From the NCBI RefSeq assembly GCF_023634865.1, contig NZ_JAMLJN010000002.1:186001-250000 (forward strand): a DNA stretch of 64,000 nucleotides. The letters are read 5' to 3'. Below are positions 7,134 through 26,194 of the stretch, piece by piece. Below the pieces are notes generated by a model that was not told the origin of the DNA, did no database searches, and saw nothing but the letters and a program-made list of their open reading frames with translations. Position 1 is the stretch's first letter. Each line of letters starts with the position of its first letter. Made by a program: the position numbers and the translations under genes. The DNA is from Flavobacterium fragile (GTDB lineage Bacteria > Bacteroidota > Bacteroidia > Flavobacteriales > Flavobacteriaceae).

Positions 7134-7523
7134 ATGATACAAGTTGCTCCACTTTTAGTCTTAGCTTTTTTAGCCATCACTTTTTTACAATCTGGATATG
7201 ATAAAATTAAAGATTGGAAAGGCAATGTTGAATGGTTAACAGGTCATTTTGCCAATACGATTTTAGCCAAACAAGTTCCATTTGCTTTAGGAATTGTTCT
7301 TGTTTTAGAAGTAGTTTCGGGAATTTTATGTGTTTCTGGAATTATCCAACACTTGGTGCAAGATGTGGTGATTAGAGGTTTAGGATTTTATGGTGCCATT
7401 TTATCTTGTATTACGTTACTTTTCCTTTTATTCGGACAACGTTTAGCGAAAGATTACGATGGCGCTAGAACGATTGTAATTTACTTTATTCCAGCAGTTT
7501 TAGTGGTTTTTTGGTTGAATTAG
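7134..7523 (+). CDS. DoxX family membrane protein
   Basis: A 129-residue protein with four predicted transmembrane helices: about 4-20, 47-68, 78-103 and 108-128. The N-terminal layout LAITFLQSGYDKIKDW is the DoxX-type first helix and loop, and PFALGIVLVLEVVSGILC is helix two. The function of this subfamily is unknown. It starts 3 bases after holB, so it is likely read from the same transcript. Confidence 0.8.
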   Translation: MIQVAPLLVLAFLAITFLQSGYDKIKDWKGNVEWLTGHFANTILAKQVPFALGIVLVLEVVSGILCVSGIIQHLVQDVVIRGLGFYGAILSCITLLFLLFGQRLAKDYDGARTIVIYFIPAVLVVFWLN

Positions 7524-8036: not shown

Positions 8037-8119
8037 GAGACGCTTTACAGCGTGACAAACTGGTCGTGAAATAATTGGGTTTAAACTTTATGTTGGATGC
8101 TTAGCAGCATGACAACTTT
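8037..8119 (+). repeat. Compound dispersed element, left copy flanking the GIY-YIG gene (hairpins 2 and 3)
   Basis: Two hairpin units in direct orientation: ACGCT-TTAC-AGCGT-GACAAAC at 8038-8058 and ATGCT-TAGC-AGCAT-GACAACT at 8097-8117, joined by a spacer containing ATTGGGTTTAAACTTT. The whole arrangement recurs at 8524-8604 with a 3-base gap and scattered substitutions. The two copies bracket the GIY-YIG gene as direct repeats. Confidence 0.7.
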
Positions 8120-8152
8120 GAGGGTAAACTAAACGGAAAATATTCACACAAC

Positions 8153-8179
8153 GTTTGTCATGCTGTCAAGCATCTCTTT
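8153..8179 (-). repeat. Dispersed hairpin element, inverted copy 4
   Basis: On the minus strand this reads GATGCT-TGAC-AGCATGACAAAC, a 5-bp stem plus GACAAAC. It faces copy 3 (8096-8119) in inverted orientation about 35 bases away, so copies 3 and 4 form a REPIN-like inverted pair. It ends 8 bases from the stop codon of the GIY-YIG gene. Confidence 0.65.
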
Positions 8180-8186
8180 GTGGTTC

Positions 8187-8498
8187 TTATGAAAAATGAT
8201 TATTCAAGAATTTCATGTTGGGGTTGAATTCTTTTATCAATTCCAATTTCAAATCTCTTCTTAAAAGTTTAATTTCTTTTTCTCTTGCAATTGCTTGTTG
8301 AATCCAACCGAATTTTTCGTAATAAATCAAATAATTAAGGTTGTATTTTGCTGTAAAACTGTTTGTATTTAGTTTTTCGTTGTGCTCTTGTAATCTTCTT
8401 TTTAGATTATTTGTGACACCGGTGTAAAGAACGGTTTTGGCTTTGTTTGTTAGAATGTAAACGTAAAAAGTGTAGATTCCTTCTGAAAATTCGATCAT
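8187..8498 (-). CDS. Small GIY-YIG nuclease-domain protein
   Basis: A 103-residue single-domain protein of the UPF0213/YhbQ-like GIY-YIG type. The core motifs are YVY (12-14) for GIY and YTG (25-27) for YIG. They are followed by TNNLKRRLQEH, which supplies the conserved Arg and His, and by AREKEIK (71-77), which supplies the metal-binding Glu. All catalytic positions look intact. There is no separate DNA-binding domain. Direct copies of a compound palindromic element flank it at 8037-8119 and 8524-8604. A link between nuclease and repeats is inference. It is not in an operon with its neighbours. Confidence 0.9.
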   Translation of the reverse strand: MIEFSEGIYTFYVYILTNKAKTVLYTGVTNNLKRRLQEHNEKLNTNSFTAKYNLNYLIYYEKFGWIQQAIAREKEIKLLRRDLKLELIKEFNPNMKFLNNHFS

Positions 8499-8523
8499 GA
8501 TTTTGGCTTTTAAAGTGTTATCT

Positions 8524-8604
8524 GTGATATGCTTAACAGCATGACAAACTGAACAAATGATTGGGTTTAAACTTTGTGTGGGATGCTTTACAGTAGGACA
8601 ACTT
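8524..8604 (+). repeat. Compound dispersed element, right copy flanking the GIY-YIG gene (hairpins 5 and 6)
   Basis: Unit 5 is ATGCT-TAAC-AGCAT-GACAAAC at about 8528-8548. Unit 6 is ATGCT-TTAC-AGTAG-GACAACT at about 8582-8602, with the second arm decayed. The spacer ATTGGGTTTAAACTTT is identical to that in the left copy. It lies between the start of the GIY-YIG gene and the end of the helicase gene. Confidence 0.7.
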
Positions 8605-8628
8605 TGTGTATAAAACTTGTGCTAAAAA

Positions 8629-10902
8629 CTAACCCAAACTCGCTTTAAACAATTTCAACTCGTCCCAAGTGAATGTATCGCCGTGGATTTCTTTTAATTC
8701 GCCTAAACTTTCACCTTTAAAATCTTTGAAAGCAGCTCTTAAATCGGATATTTTATCTTCTGATAAAATGTCGGAAAGTTGCACGATTTCCATTTGGATT
8801 AACTTAGCAAAATGGTTGTAAATCGTTTGTGGTGTTAGCTTTCGATGTTTTGCAATTTCGTATATCGATAAGTTTTGTTTCCACAATTCTAAGGTATCTT
8901 CGTAAGTAGATTTCTTTGGTTCTTTTGTTTTTTTCTTTTTGGAATCGGTGTAATACGAAACCTCTTCGTCATCTTCCACTAAAGCAGCGTGAGAAGTTCT
9001 AAATCGTTCAGCAACAATGACTAACTTATTGATTTTGTAAGTACTCATGTCTTCCGAAATTAAATTTTTCTTTGAAATTTCTTTTCCTTCGACAATGATA
9101 TTGGTTAATAATTTAGCCTTTTTAAGTTGTAAAATCGCTTTGATTTGAAGTTCTTCTAAAACCAATAATTCATCATAAAACGCTTTTACTTTTTTGATGC
9201 GTTTGACTTCTTCGATTTTCAATAACAATTCTTCTACAACAGCATCTAACGTTTTAAAAAAGTACTGATAAGCCGCATCACAACGTTCTTTTACGAAATT
9301 CACATCCAAATTTTCATCGGAAAAAATTTTATGCAATTGCGACATAAATTTCCCTGATGGTTCGAGAATTTCAGCGATTTTATCGTGTTGGTTTTTTGCC
9401 CAGTCGTTATGCTTTGTTTTTGGTGATTTCGGTGCTTCGGAATTATAACTGAATAAATGATTGCGCCATTCTTGTCCTAATTCTTTGAAATCAAATGAAT
9501 TAAGCAAAGTATTCAACCAAAAAAACAAGGTCTCTTTAGCCAACGAGTGTTGCAAAATTTCTTCAGAAGCTTTGTTTTCAGCATAATTAAGTACTTGTTC
9601 ATCGCTCGAAATGCCATTCATTCTCAACGGAGAAAGCAAAATAAGTCCTTTTAACGAACGCAAACGCGATAAAGCCACATATGCTTGTCCGGGCGCAAAA
9701 ACTTGCGATACATCGAGCGCTGCTTTGTCAAAAGTTAAACCTTGACTTTTATGCACCGTAATTGCCCAAGCCAATTTGATAGGGTAGTGGACAAAAGTTC
9801 CGATTACTTCCTCTTCTATTTCTTTGGTGTTTTCGTTGACTTTATAGCGAATATTTTGCCATTCGTAGCGTTCTACTTCAATGGTTTTGTTTTCTTCGGG
9901 AAAATGAACAAAAATTTCCTTTTCGGTTAAAGAACTGATAACGCCCATTTTTCCGTTGAAGAATTGCTTCTCTATATTCAAATCGTTTTTAATAAACATG
10001 ACTTGCGCTCCGACTTTTAGCTGCAATTGTTCTTCTATCGGATAAATTTTTTCAGGAAAATCTCCCGTAATTTCGGGTAAATATGTGAATTGTTTTCCTT
10101 CTAAATCTTTTAAAGATTGTGCGTTTATGGTATCTGCTTTGAAATTATGTGTGGTTAAAATAATGAAACCTTTGTTTTTCTTCAGATCAAAATCAGGATG
10201 CACAAATTGATTTAGCAATTGCACATCTTCCGAAGTGATTTTATTATGACGTAAATGGTTCAAAACATCAATAAATTCGGCATCCGTTTGACGGAAAATT
10301 TTATCTAATTCAATGTATAAAGGTGGAAATTGCTGAATCACATGCGAATGAAAAAAGAACATACCTCGATAGTAATTCTTGAGCATTTCCCATTCTTCAT
10401 TTTTCACTACTGGTGGTAATTGTAATAAATCTCCTATAAATAAAACTTGTACTCCACCGAAAGGTCTTTCATTTCTTCTCACTTTTCGCATCATAAAATC
10501 CATGGCATCCAGTACATCGGCACGCAACATAGATACTTCATCAATAACCAACAATTCCATATTTCTAATAACAGAACGTTTCACGTTATTCATTTTGAAA
10601 TGGCGTCCTAACGAATCGCGATTTTCGAATTTTACAGTGTCGGAAAAATGTGGAAGTTGCTTATTATCAGGAATAAAAGCCGCAAAAGGCAATTGAAACA
10701 TGGAATGAATAGTTACTCCATTCGCGTTTAAAGCGGCAATTCCTGTAGGAGCTACAACGACAGTGTTTTTATGTGTTGTGGCAATAATTTCTTTTAAAAG
10801 TGTAGTTTTTCCGGTTCCTGCTTTTCCGGTAAGGAAGATGGATTTATTCGTTTGATTAATAAATCGAAGGGTGTAAGTGGCTGCGGCTGATACTTGTTCC
10901 AT
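8629..10902 (-). CDS. Pif1/RecD-like AAA ATPase helicase with C-terminal helix-turn-helix
   Basis: A 757-residue protein when begun at the ATG at 10902. The helicase core starts with Walker A GKAGTGKTT (26-34) followed by Walker B LLVIDEVSML near 115. Further on are the FIGDLLQLPPV motif, typical of Pif1, and the C-terminal superfamily-1 motif WAITVHKSQGLTFD. The last roughly 90 residues are a winged or simple helix-turn-helix (LSIYEIAKHRKLTPQTIYNH), as in HTH_40-tailed Pif1 relatives of Bacteroidota. The expected role is 5'-3' DNA unwinding in genome maintenance. The TTG 24 bases further upstream falls inside the -7 box and was rejected as the start. Confidence 0.88.
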   Translation of the reverse strand: MEQVSAAATYTLRFINQTNKSIFLTGKAGTGKTTLLKEIIATTHKNTVVVAPTGIAALNANGVTIHSMFQLPFAAFIPDNKQLPHFSDTVKFENRDSLGRHFKMNNVKRSVIRNMELLVIDEVSMLRADVLDAMDFMMRKVRRNERPFGGVQVLFIGDLLQLPPVVKNEEWEMLKNYYRGMFFFHSHVIQQFPPLYIELDKIFRQTDAEFIDVLNHLRHNKITSEDVQLLNQFVHPDFDLKKNKGFIILTTHNFKADTINAQSLKDLEGKQFTYLPEITGDFPEKIYPIEEQLQLKVGAQVMFIKNDLNIEKQFFNGKMGVISSLTEKEIFVHFPEENKTIEVERYEWQNIRYKVNENTKEIEEEVIGTFVHYPIKLAWAITVHKSQGLTFDKAALDVSQVFAPGQAYVALSRLRSLKGLILLSPLRMNGISSDEQVLNYAENKASEEILQHSLAKETLFFWLNTLLNSFDFKELGQEWRNHLFSYNSEAPKSPKTKHNDWAKNQHDKIAEILEPSGKFMSQLHKIFSDENLDVNFVKERCDAAYQYFFKTLDAVVEELLLKIEEVKRIKKVKAFYDELLVLEELQIKAILQLKKAKLLTNIIVEGKEISKKNLISEDMSTYKINKLVIVAERFRTSHAALVEDDEEVSYYTDSKKKKTKEPKKSTYEDTLELWKQNLSIYEIAKHRKLTPQTIYNHFAKLIQMEIVQLSDILSEDKISDLRAAFKDFKGESLGELKEIHGDTFTWDELKLFKASLG

Positions 10903-10923
10903 TTGGCGTAAAAAATTAAAAAA

Positions 10924-10931
10924 CAAATATA
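10924..10931 (-). promoter_or_regulatory. Putative -7 promoter box of the helicase gene
   Basis: The minus strand reads TATATTTG (TAnnTTTG), 21 bases before the ATG at 10902. It overlaps the alternative upstream TTG, which argues for the shorter protein. Confidence 0.55.
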
Positions 10932-18613: not shown

Positions 18614-20116
18614 ATGTCAAAACAAGTTAGAGTAAGATTTGCACCAAGTCCGACTGGACCCTTGCATATTGGTGGTGTTCGTACCGCTTTATTCAATTAT
18701 TTATTTGCCAAAAAACATGGTGGTACTTTCTATTTACGAATTGAAGATACCGATCAAACGCGTTTTGTACCAGGAGCAGAAGCTTATATTTTTGAAGCTT
18801 TAGAATGGTTAGGAATTGCGCCAGATGAAACTGTAGGAAAGAATGAAAAATTTGGACCTTATCGTCAAAGTGAACGTAAAGCAATGTACCAACAATATGC
18901 GGACCAATTAATTAATTCGGGTTGGGCATATTATGCTTTTGATACGGCTGAAAGTTTAGATGCGATGCGAAAAGAAGCTGAAGCCAATGGAAAAACGTTT
19001 ATTTATAATCATTCGGTAAGAGAGCAATTGGATAACTCGTTGACTGTTTCACGTGAAAAAGTGGAAGAAAGAATTGCAAATGGTGAGCATTATGTTATCC
19101 GTTTTAAAACACCTGTGAATGAAATTTTAGAATTAAAAGACATCATTCGTGGCGATATTAAATTTGATACGAATTTATTAGATGATAAAGTTTTATTCAA
19201 ATCGGATGGAATGCCAACCTATCACTTAGCGAATATTGTAGATGACCATTTGATGGAAACTTCACATGTAATTCGTGGTGAAGAATGGTTACCAAGTTTG
19301 CCTTTACATCATTTATTATATAAAGCTTTTGGTTGGAATGCACCTGAATTTGCGCATTTACCATTGATTTTAAAACCAATTGGAAACGGAAAATTATCAA
19401 AACGTGATGGTGATAAAATGGGATTCCCAGTATTTCCATTAGAGTGGAAAACAGAAGAAGGAATTTCATCTGGTTACAGAGAAAACGGATTTTTCCCAGA
19501 AGCGGTAATCAACTTTTTAGCCTTATTAGGTTGGAATGACGGAACCGAACAAGAGATTTTCTCATTGGAAGAATTAATAGAAAAATTTGACTTAAACCGC
19601 ATTCACAAAGCAGGAGCGAAGTTTGACCCTGAGAAAAACAAATGGTTCAATCATCAGTATTTACAAAAGCAAAGTGATGCAAGTTTAGCGGAAAGCTTTA
19701 AATCAATTTTAGATAAAAAAGGAATCTCTACAACGCTCGATTTGACAAAGATTGTAGGAATGATTAAAGAAAGAGCTAATTTCGTAACCGAATTTTGGGA
19801 TTTAGCCGATTATTTCTTTGAAGCACCAACAACTTACGACGAAAAAGCGGTTAAAAACTGGAAAGAAGAAACACCAGGTTTAATGCAACAAGTGATTTCT
19901 GAATTAAATAAAATAGAAGATTTTACTTCTGCTAACATCGAAACCTTATTAAAAGAGTGGATGACAGCCAACGAAATTGGAATGGGAAAAGTAATGCAAC
20001 CGCTTCGATTGAGTTTAGTAGGAGCTTTAAAAGGGCCTCATTTATTTGACATCATCGAAATGATAGGAAAAGCCGAAACGGTAAAAAGAATTGAAAAAGC
20101 GATTGCTAGTTTATAA
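18614..20116 (+). CDS. gltX: Glutamate--tRNA ligase
   Basis: A 500-residue class I synthetase charging tRNA-Glu. The ATP-binding HIGH variant is PLHIGGVRTAL (HIGG at 18-21), and the KMSKS-loop equivalent is KLSKRDGDKMGF near residue 260. The anticodon-binding C-terminal half is complete. I start it at ATG 18614 (MSKQVRVRFAPSPTGP). Extending upstream would include the dispersed hairpin element. It carries an internal near-parS sequence at 19045-19060 and ends before a strong terminator. Confidence 0.97.
   Translation: MSKQVRVRFAPSPTGPLHIGGVRTALFNYLFAKKHGGTFYLRIEDTDQTRFVPGAEAYIFEALEWLGIAPDETVGKNEKFGPYRQSERKAMYQQYADQLINSGWAYYAFDTAESLDAMRKEAEANGKTFIYNHSVREQLDNSLTVSREKVEERIANGEHYVIRFKTPVNEILELKDIIRGDIKFDTNLLDDKVLFKSDGMPTYHLANIVDDHLMETSHVIRGEEWLPSLPLHHLLYKAFGWNAPEFAHLPLILKPIGNGKLSKRDGDKMGFPVFPLEWKTEEGISSGYRENGFFPEAVINFLALLGWNDGTEQEIFSLEELIEKFDLNRIHKAGAKFDPEKNKWFNHQYLQKQSDASLAESFKSILDKKGISTTLDLTKIVGMIKERANFVTEFWDLADYFFEAPTTYDEKAVKNWKEETPGLMQQVISELNKIEDFTSANIETLLKEWMTANEIGMGKVMQPLRLSLVGALKGPHLFDIIEMIGKAETVKRIEKAIASL
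19045..19060. promoter_or_regulatory. parS-like sequence inside gltX (15 of 16)
   Basis: TGTTTCACGTGAAAAA differs from the consensus only at position 15 (A for C). It encodes part of TVSREKV in GltX. It may be a weak ParB site or chance. Confidence 0.4.
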
Positions 20117-21594: not shown

Positions 21595-21618
21595 ATCTCG
21601 ACTTCGCTCGATTTGACA
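21595..21618 (+). repeat. Dispersed hairpin element, copy 8 (divergent)
   Basis: TCGA-CTTCGC-TCGA lies in the sequence ATCTCGACTTCGCTCGAT and is followed by TTGACAAA. The short stem and GACAAA tail match the family layout, but the stem sequence is unrelated to copies 1-6. Confidence 0.45.
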
Positions 21619-26165: not shown

Positions 26166-26194
26166 GATCCTGAAACGAGTTCAGGATGACAAAC
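26166..26194 (+). repeat. Dispersed hairpin element, copy 9
   Basis: ATCCTGAA-ACGAG-TTCAGGAT (8-bp perfect stem) is followed directly by GACAAAC. This is the longest stem of the family in the window. It lies just past the end of the LysE-family gene. Confidence 0.6.

Follow-up and report, generated by a model that had tools for sequence, protein, structure and literature searches.

A small GIY-YIG nuclease gene lies between copies of a palindromic repeat in the window (the whole 64,000-nucleotide stretch of Flavobacterium fragile DNA analysed here), raising the question of whether enzyme and repeats belong together as a mobile unit. A first-pass annotation had proposed that the nuclease plays a role similar to that of RAYT transposases or that gene and repeats form a mobile cassette. 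The features of the locus are listed in Table 1.

Table 1. Features of the nuclease locus and its surroundings (positions within the window)
Feature	Position	Strand	Basis
GIY-YIG nuclease gene, 103 aa, intact	8187–8498	−	ORF and PF01541; conserved residues; structure model
Tagged hairpin 5′ of the gene; relative to the gene, its TGTC tag faces outward	8526–8549	−	Repeat and hairpin search
Degenerate hairpin, unit 2 of the upstream compound repeat	8580–8601	−	Repeat search, folding energy
Inverted tagged hairpin at the 3′ side of the gene, tag outward	8153–8176	+	
Tagged hairpin, unit 2 of the downstream compound repeat	8094–8115	−	
Tagged hairpin, unit 1 of the downstream compound repeat	8037–8058	−	
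Direct compound repeat, downstream copy	8069–8128		
Direct compound repeat, upstream copy	8555–8614		
Sole further window copy of the gene's hairpin	~1512–1533	−	
Neighbour, DoxX-like gene	7134–7523	+	
Neighbour, PIF1-like helicase gene	8629–10926	−	

The layout described by the first-pass annotation was recovered. The intact 103-residue ORF matched PF01541 at 59 bits (cut-off 22.6) and sits between direct two-hairpin copies with 83% identity over 60 nt; both copies contain the spacer ATTGGGTTTAAACTTT (8074–8089 and 8560–8575), and the inverted single unit reported at the 3′ side of the gene was also found. In the window units, a TGTC tag is followed by an ATGCT or ACGCT arm, which pairs with its complement across a 4-nt loop; the tail is mostly CTC or CCA. 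The hairpin at 8580 was predicted at −0.4 kcal/mol and the other units at the gene at −4.7 to −6.1 kcal/mol (RNA parameters). Bounded by the two hairpins with outward tags, the REP-gene-REP unit of the window spans 8153–8549 (397 bp). The annotation had also described the hairpin family as scattered through the window, and this was not borne out: the window holds one further copy, and 5 of the 9 sites found genome-wide at ≤ 2 mismatches (2.69 Mb, 27 contigs) lie within ~150 bp of the gene. The copies cluster at the gene and are not spread over the window. Elsewhere in the window, a canonical tagged hairpin with an 8-bp stem and 5-nt loop (26167–26190, −; TGTC tag, CCTGAA stem) differs from the stem type of the gene.

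The window protein was matched in 79 of 120 genomes of its family, with up to eight matches per genome, some carrying stop codons. Among the 90 matches with E ≤ 5e-17, 71 were analysed; 17 were not fetched, and two (L024 and L031) were dropped as their loci were clipped by contig ends and their flank hits were artefacts. An earlier detector (6-bp stem, no tail letter) found hairpins on any side of 39/71 genes and on both sides of 15/71, at densities of 1.57/kb near genes, 0.24/kb further off and 0.13/kb in random stretches; it was replaced because it missed 5-bp stems. The strict detector, tuned on the same 71 genes, demanded GTC, a perfect 5-bp stem opened by AT and then C. It identified 135 hairpins within 300 bp of the 71 genes (3.17/kb). 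The density fell to 0.22/kb beyond that distance in these loci and was 0.025/kb in a random background of 20 stretches of 20 kb from eight of the genomes. Hairpins were present on any side of 48/71 genes and on both sides of 27/71, the window gene being positive on one side only; random positions gave 1.45% and 0/10,000, respectively. Chance hairpins were ruled out by five permuted tags, which gave any-side hits at 0–2 of the 71 genes and none on both sides.

The pattern extended well beyond the family. Among 80 loci from the best matches listed for named species genomes, which are not a random sample, strict hairpins occurred on any side of 58 and on both sides of 40, and permuted tags returned 1–4/80 and 0/80. 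Judged by record titles, some of them those of metagenome bins, the taxa with hairpins in this set include Alpha-, Beta- and Gammaproteobacteria, Deltaproteobacteria, Nitrospirae, Ignavibacteriales, Armatimonadetes, Patescibacteria and Bacteroidota. Control intervals had tagged hairpins on both sides in 0 of 6143 cases.

The comparison with chance suggested by the first-pass annotation was also run without any motif, by searching the 300 bp upstream and the 300 bp downstream for a common repeat (blastn, E ≤ 1e-3), and flanking by repeats proved far above background. In the window's family, a repeat common to both flanks was found at 55/71 genes and was absent from the 300-bp flanks of the other 16 by blastn; controls were positive for 6 of 130 other intervals of these loci and for 25 of 1000 random ones. 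The closest named loci gave 72/79 versus 7/144 intervals elsewhere in the loci, and gammaproteobacterial loci 19/19; one of the 80 named loci and one of 20 gammaproteobacterial loci had a contig end too near to be tested. Among the closest named loci without a strict hairpin, 21/22 shared a flank repeat, and many of these repeats were visible variants of the same hairpin. The motif-free test and the later-fetched sets are independent of the detector tuning.

Bracketing was confined to one group of small GIY-YIG genes. A profile search of 185 genomes from the class of Rhodanobacter separated a strong group (best E 1e-44 to 1.1e-28, 39 genomes) from a weak group, whose genes we take to be UPF0213-type small GIY-YIG genes. 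Twenty loci of each were hand-picked, not drawn at random, from the matches listed. Strong-group genes had hairpins on any side in 16/20 loci and on both sides in 14/20, and all 19 testable loci had a repeat shared between the flanks; permuted tags gave none on both sides and almost nothing overall. The weak group had a hairpin on any side in 1/20 loci and a flank-shared repeat in 0/20.

Enzyme and repeat were also matched to each other. The tree covered 76 nuclease copies of the window's family and genus; a further 26, out of 102, had no strict hairpin and were left off it. Stem type, defined as the three nucleotides after GTCAT, changed 23 times along this tree, compared with a shuffled mean of 46.4; none of 200 shuffles was as low. 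Species phylogeny as the source of this match was ruled out by shuffling the labels within single genomes (eight multi-copy genomes), which gave a mean of 30.9 and a minimum of 24, with ≤ 23 in 0/1000. The nearest upstream and downstream stem types agreed at 34/45 loci (shuffled mean 9.3, maximum 20 in 10,000 shuffles). TCT, a common stem type, did not cluster when taken alone (113/500 shuffles as low). With few columns and many open forks, the tree shows clustering and not a resolved history.

The genome of the window itself holds a second such pair. Its other small GIY-YIG gene (L001, contig 21) likewise lies, as seen by eye, between direct copies of a compound repeat that again has a TGTC tag but a different stem, TCGAGC. 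This family has 43 genomic matches at ≤ 3 mismatches (reversed-pattern control, 0), with five within ~150 bp of the gene and 12/43 inside a 2-kb stretch around it. The two nuclease genes of this genome thus each have their own repeat family. Two copies of the TCGAGC type also occur in the window, at 21596–21618 (−, one mismatch) and 19725–19747 (−, three mismatches).

Sites lacking the unit, which the first-pass annotation had proposed to look for in close strains, were found in Azospirillum, in Sphingobium and, as a less clear case, in the window's genus. In Azospirillum lipoferum, sufB and sufC border the unit, which all three aligned relatives (A. ramasamyi, A. oryzae and B510) lack; these have no REP at that site either. 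At a site between fnrL and a regulator gene in Sphingobium, three aligned strains carry REP-gene-REP, two carry a solo palindrome and two carry neither; the solo palindrome reads as the left REP's outer arm joined to that of the right REP. Inspection by eye of the Azospirillum and Sphingobium sites, whose borders have diverged, revealed no recognisable target-site duplication. In the window's genus, 30 helicase loci were fetched from the 61 genomes searched. The DoxX-like and helicase genes are 6–53 bp apart with neither nuclease nor hairpin in five of these loci, and 22 loci were not syntenic. The window and two close species have a gap of 1.1–1.25 kb holding the nuclease and REPs, with a second, broken copy in one of them. 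The difference is not a clean single insertion because the window's gap also holds another ORF. A further candidate empty site (G142, helicase 97% identical) was ruled out by its rearranged neighbourhood.

Several loci bear on how such units may change. In Sphingomonas sp. IC081, nuclease coding sequence is present within two REP pairs, and five shorter pairs have the same inner ends, the pattern expected of internal deletions; because the outer flanks are common to them as well, what was amplified there is a larger repeat. Opposed REP pairs without a gene occur in genomes G183 and G185 and are candidate units of the REPIN kind. Separately, in G150, a REP pair without a gene (two opposed tagged hairpins, L282) lies just past the orthologous helicase gene, at a place where no nuclease was matched, and contig 9 of G151 carries broken and intact nuclease copies in tandem with REPs between them (L205/L256).

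Repeat number followed the gene in part, as the first-pass annotation had asked. Across the 185 genomes, at least three copies of one REP pattern were counted in 17 of the 39 genomes that have a strong-group gene and in 18 of the 146 that lack one (Fisher p 4e-5; Mann–Whitney p 7e-7), a count that covers one pattern only and comes without figures for genome completeness. The repeats were thus rarer without the gene but not absent, and some genomes free of the strong group hold 24–49 copies; the 18 gene-less genomes count against strict dependence. In one genome (G257), the sole two genomic copies of one REP pattern sit on either side of the gene. In another genome of the class (G374), 21 GIY-YIG matches, a good number of which are short fragments, accompany 104 copies of one REP pattern in 2.0 Mb, an apparent burst.

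Cargo carried by phages or plasmids was also considered as an origin. The protein matched 12 of 50,697 phage records, in each over less than 80% of its length, and 32 of 72,556 plasmid records, several of them chromosome-sized; this origin was rejected. Among 16 of the 32 plasmid-collection loci that were fetched, 12 had strict hairpins, including those of Spirosoma, Planktothrix, Azospirillum, Sinorhizobium meliloti, Aeromonas and Neisseria gonorrhoeae. Three more had variant-tag repeats common to both flanks, and one, from Rhizobium tumorigenes, had no hairpin or shared repeat. The N. gonorrhoeae locus has 11 strict hairpins, and the neisserial repeats at the nuclease gene are CGTC-1-like. 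On plasmid p1 of Planktothrix agardhii, the nuclease-REP unit (L109) has an MmeI-type restriction gene on one side and the DISARM gene drmA on the other.

The anatomy of the repeats places them near a known superfamily. Among 105 canonical variants beside genes, which had been selected for full pairing, stem and loop measured 8/4 (52 variants), 8/5 (38) or 9/5 (15), with a tag that is mostly C/TGTC and a tail that is mostly CCA or CTC, in agreement with the published descriptions of CGTC-1 to CGTC-4. Pairs 6–8, which the detector did not demand, were formed in 74, 77 and 96% of 94 distinct cores. The nearest two hairpins had their tags outward at 29/40 of the closest named loci and 9/14 strong-group loci; at two-sided loci of the window's family, tags were outward in 24/46 and inward in 13/46. 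Outward pairs spanned medians of 379, 407 and 443 bp. According to the 2013 survey that defined them, CGTC REPs, which include neisserial dRS3 (= CGTC-1) and rickettsial RPE-4 and RPE-6, apparently lack a dedicated transposase (association "−" in its Table 1), and their movement by RAYTs or by other enzymes is treated there as an open question (PMC3733652). The repeats described here share with this superfamily the unpaired C/TGTC end tag and the CCA-like tail; the AT-opened 8–9-bp stem with a 4–5-nt loop is seen in the canonical copies at genes, selected as these were for full pairing. GTC-tagged hairpins are enriched at the genes, the tag in the window is TGTC, and copies are dispersed: nine for the window hairpin (mostly at the gene), 43 for the second family and up to 153 in a relative's class. 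The differences are a GIY-YIG neighbour here where the survey lists no transposase, and window copies with 5-bp stems instead of 8–9 bp, two of them opened by AC, and CTC or CCA tails. The repeats probably belong to the CGTC/TGTC-tagged REP superfamily or are close variants of its members.

The protein has the features of a GIY-YIG domain. In 46 sequences including that of the window, Y14, Y25, G27, H39, E73 and N92 are invariant and R35 is conserved in at least 90%; these are presumably the catalytic residues. The domain and its predicted active-site residues place the protein in the GIY-YIG superfamily. The structure model of the window protein reached a pLDDT of 91.2 and a pTM of 0.83. The closest solved sequences are two UPF0213 proteins (1zg2 and 1ywl); a fold search returned 1zg2 first (E 6e-4) and Slx1 chains weakly after it (E ≥ 0.01). 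Slx1–Slx4 is described in a passage on that nuclease as working on branched DNA (PMC8287910), and the modelled likeness may fit an action of the enzyme on extruded hairpins.

We consider it probable, at roughly 0.6, that gene and repeats constitute a minimal selfish element, REP-GIY-YIG-REP, analogous to RAYT and REP but with an unrelated enzyme; such an element would typically measure 350–450 bp, with GTC tags most often outward and nuclease clades that go with their own stem types. The computations establish the bracketing, its limitation to one GIY-YIG group and the matching of enzyme and repeat, and the evidence also includes presence or absence at given sites and the conserved predicted active site. 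Mechanistically, we infer that the enzyme would recognise its own REP by tag and stem, possibly in the form of an extruded or single-stranded hairpin, and nick or cut at that point. Host repair or template switching might then copy the REP, the REP pair or the whole unit elsewhere, or delete it, in whichever direction copying proceeds; solo REPs and gene-less REP pairs would be leftover non-autonomous derivatives. The RAYT-like role or mobile cassette proposed by the first-pass annotation gains support: orthologous genes mostly do have repeats beside them, repeats are rarer where the gene is missing, and empty sites exist, with the action of the enzyme on the repeats remaining putative. Several observations count against a selfish element: REPs in 18/146 gene-less genomes, 16/71 and 1/16 loci without a shared repeat, the 5-bp stems in the window, the failure to recognise a target-site duplication, the larger repeat in IC081 and the inward tags at 13/46 loci of the window's family.

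A possible, if somewhat doubtful, account is that the REP is a pre-existing target cut by the nuclease, so that a REP-armed gene is copied in by break repair while the REPs themselves are spread by another agent. Homing nucleases are known among GIY-YIG enzymes, some genomes have REPs that outlast the gene, and the Sphingobium solo palindrome reads as the two outer arms where other strains hold REP-gene-REP. A deletion might account for that solo REP just as well, however, and no REP is present at the Azospirillum site in three relatives or at the five adjacent doxX–helicase sites; clade-specific stem types would also go unexplained unless enzyme and REP co-evolve. REPs might instead draw insertions or recombination, making the nuclease one passenger among many, in line with another ORF having been gained at the window's site and with the passages of PMC10745880 that describe dRS3 repeats as insertion sites of filamentous phages in Neisseria. 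This is quite unlikely given that the other small GIY-YIG group scored 0/20 and same-loci intervals 7/144 and 6/130, and that the match of clade and stem persists inside genomes. It is also highly improbable that the hairpins serve as RNA terminators, attenuators or stabilisers of the nuclease transcript, with distant copies as by-products. They do lie close to the match ends (medians of 28 and 22 nt at outward-tag loci among the closest named), and the 2013 survey proposes RNA roles for REPs (PMC3733652); yet both orientations and distant copies occur, the GTC tag before the stem belongs to the signal, as permuted tags yield almost nothing, and the presence or absence of whole units is left unexplained.

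If the selfish-element reading is correct, a second, unrelated enzyme type joins the REP/REPIN world, and the repeats described as phage insertion sites in Neisseria (PMC10745880) gain an origin. A broader proposal, which we offer tentatively and at a little short of even odds, is that these units form a phylum-spanning class of tiny autonomous elements (~350–450 bp), a lone GIY-YIG nuclease between two tagged hairpins, and that they are the missing agent that made and spread CGTC-tagged REPs, including dRS3 and the rickettsial and Wolbachia families, by non-HUH chemistry. A concrete candidate partner for CGTC REPs is named here, and the matched pairs of enzyme and repeat, drawn from several phyla, bring the question within reach of a binding and cleavage experiment.

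By term search, the TnpA-REP paper, which deals with GTAG repeats, contains neither CGTC nor GIY (PMC8266576), and a GIY-YIG survey does not contain "palindrom" (PMC1564403). No paper linking GIY-YIG genes with CGTC/TGTC REPs was found among the titles listed from the open-licence literature (preprints excluded), and the link may be new. Compared with known systems, UPF0213 proteins supply the nearest solved sequences (1zg2 and 1ywl) and the best fold match (1zg2), whereas the weak-group genes that we take to be of this kind share no flank repeat (0/20). GIY-YIG homing endonucleases have the catalytic domain in common with the window type, and possibly break-driven copying; the window type differs in being ~100 aa long without a second domain, bracketed by repeats and, as far as seen, not located in an intron. 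The RAYT of a REPtron is an HUH tyrosine nuclease associated with a GTAG tag, in contrast to the GIY-YIG enzyme and CGTC/TGTC tag described here: PF01541 was the only Pfam match of the window protein and its fold neighbours were GIY-YIG proteins, and the window hairpins carry TGTC, not GTAG. RAYT/TnpA-REP systems and REPINs nevertheless share with these units the flanking tagged palindromes, the enzyme-specific repeats, the paired inverted repeats and the dispersed gene-less copies.
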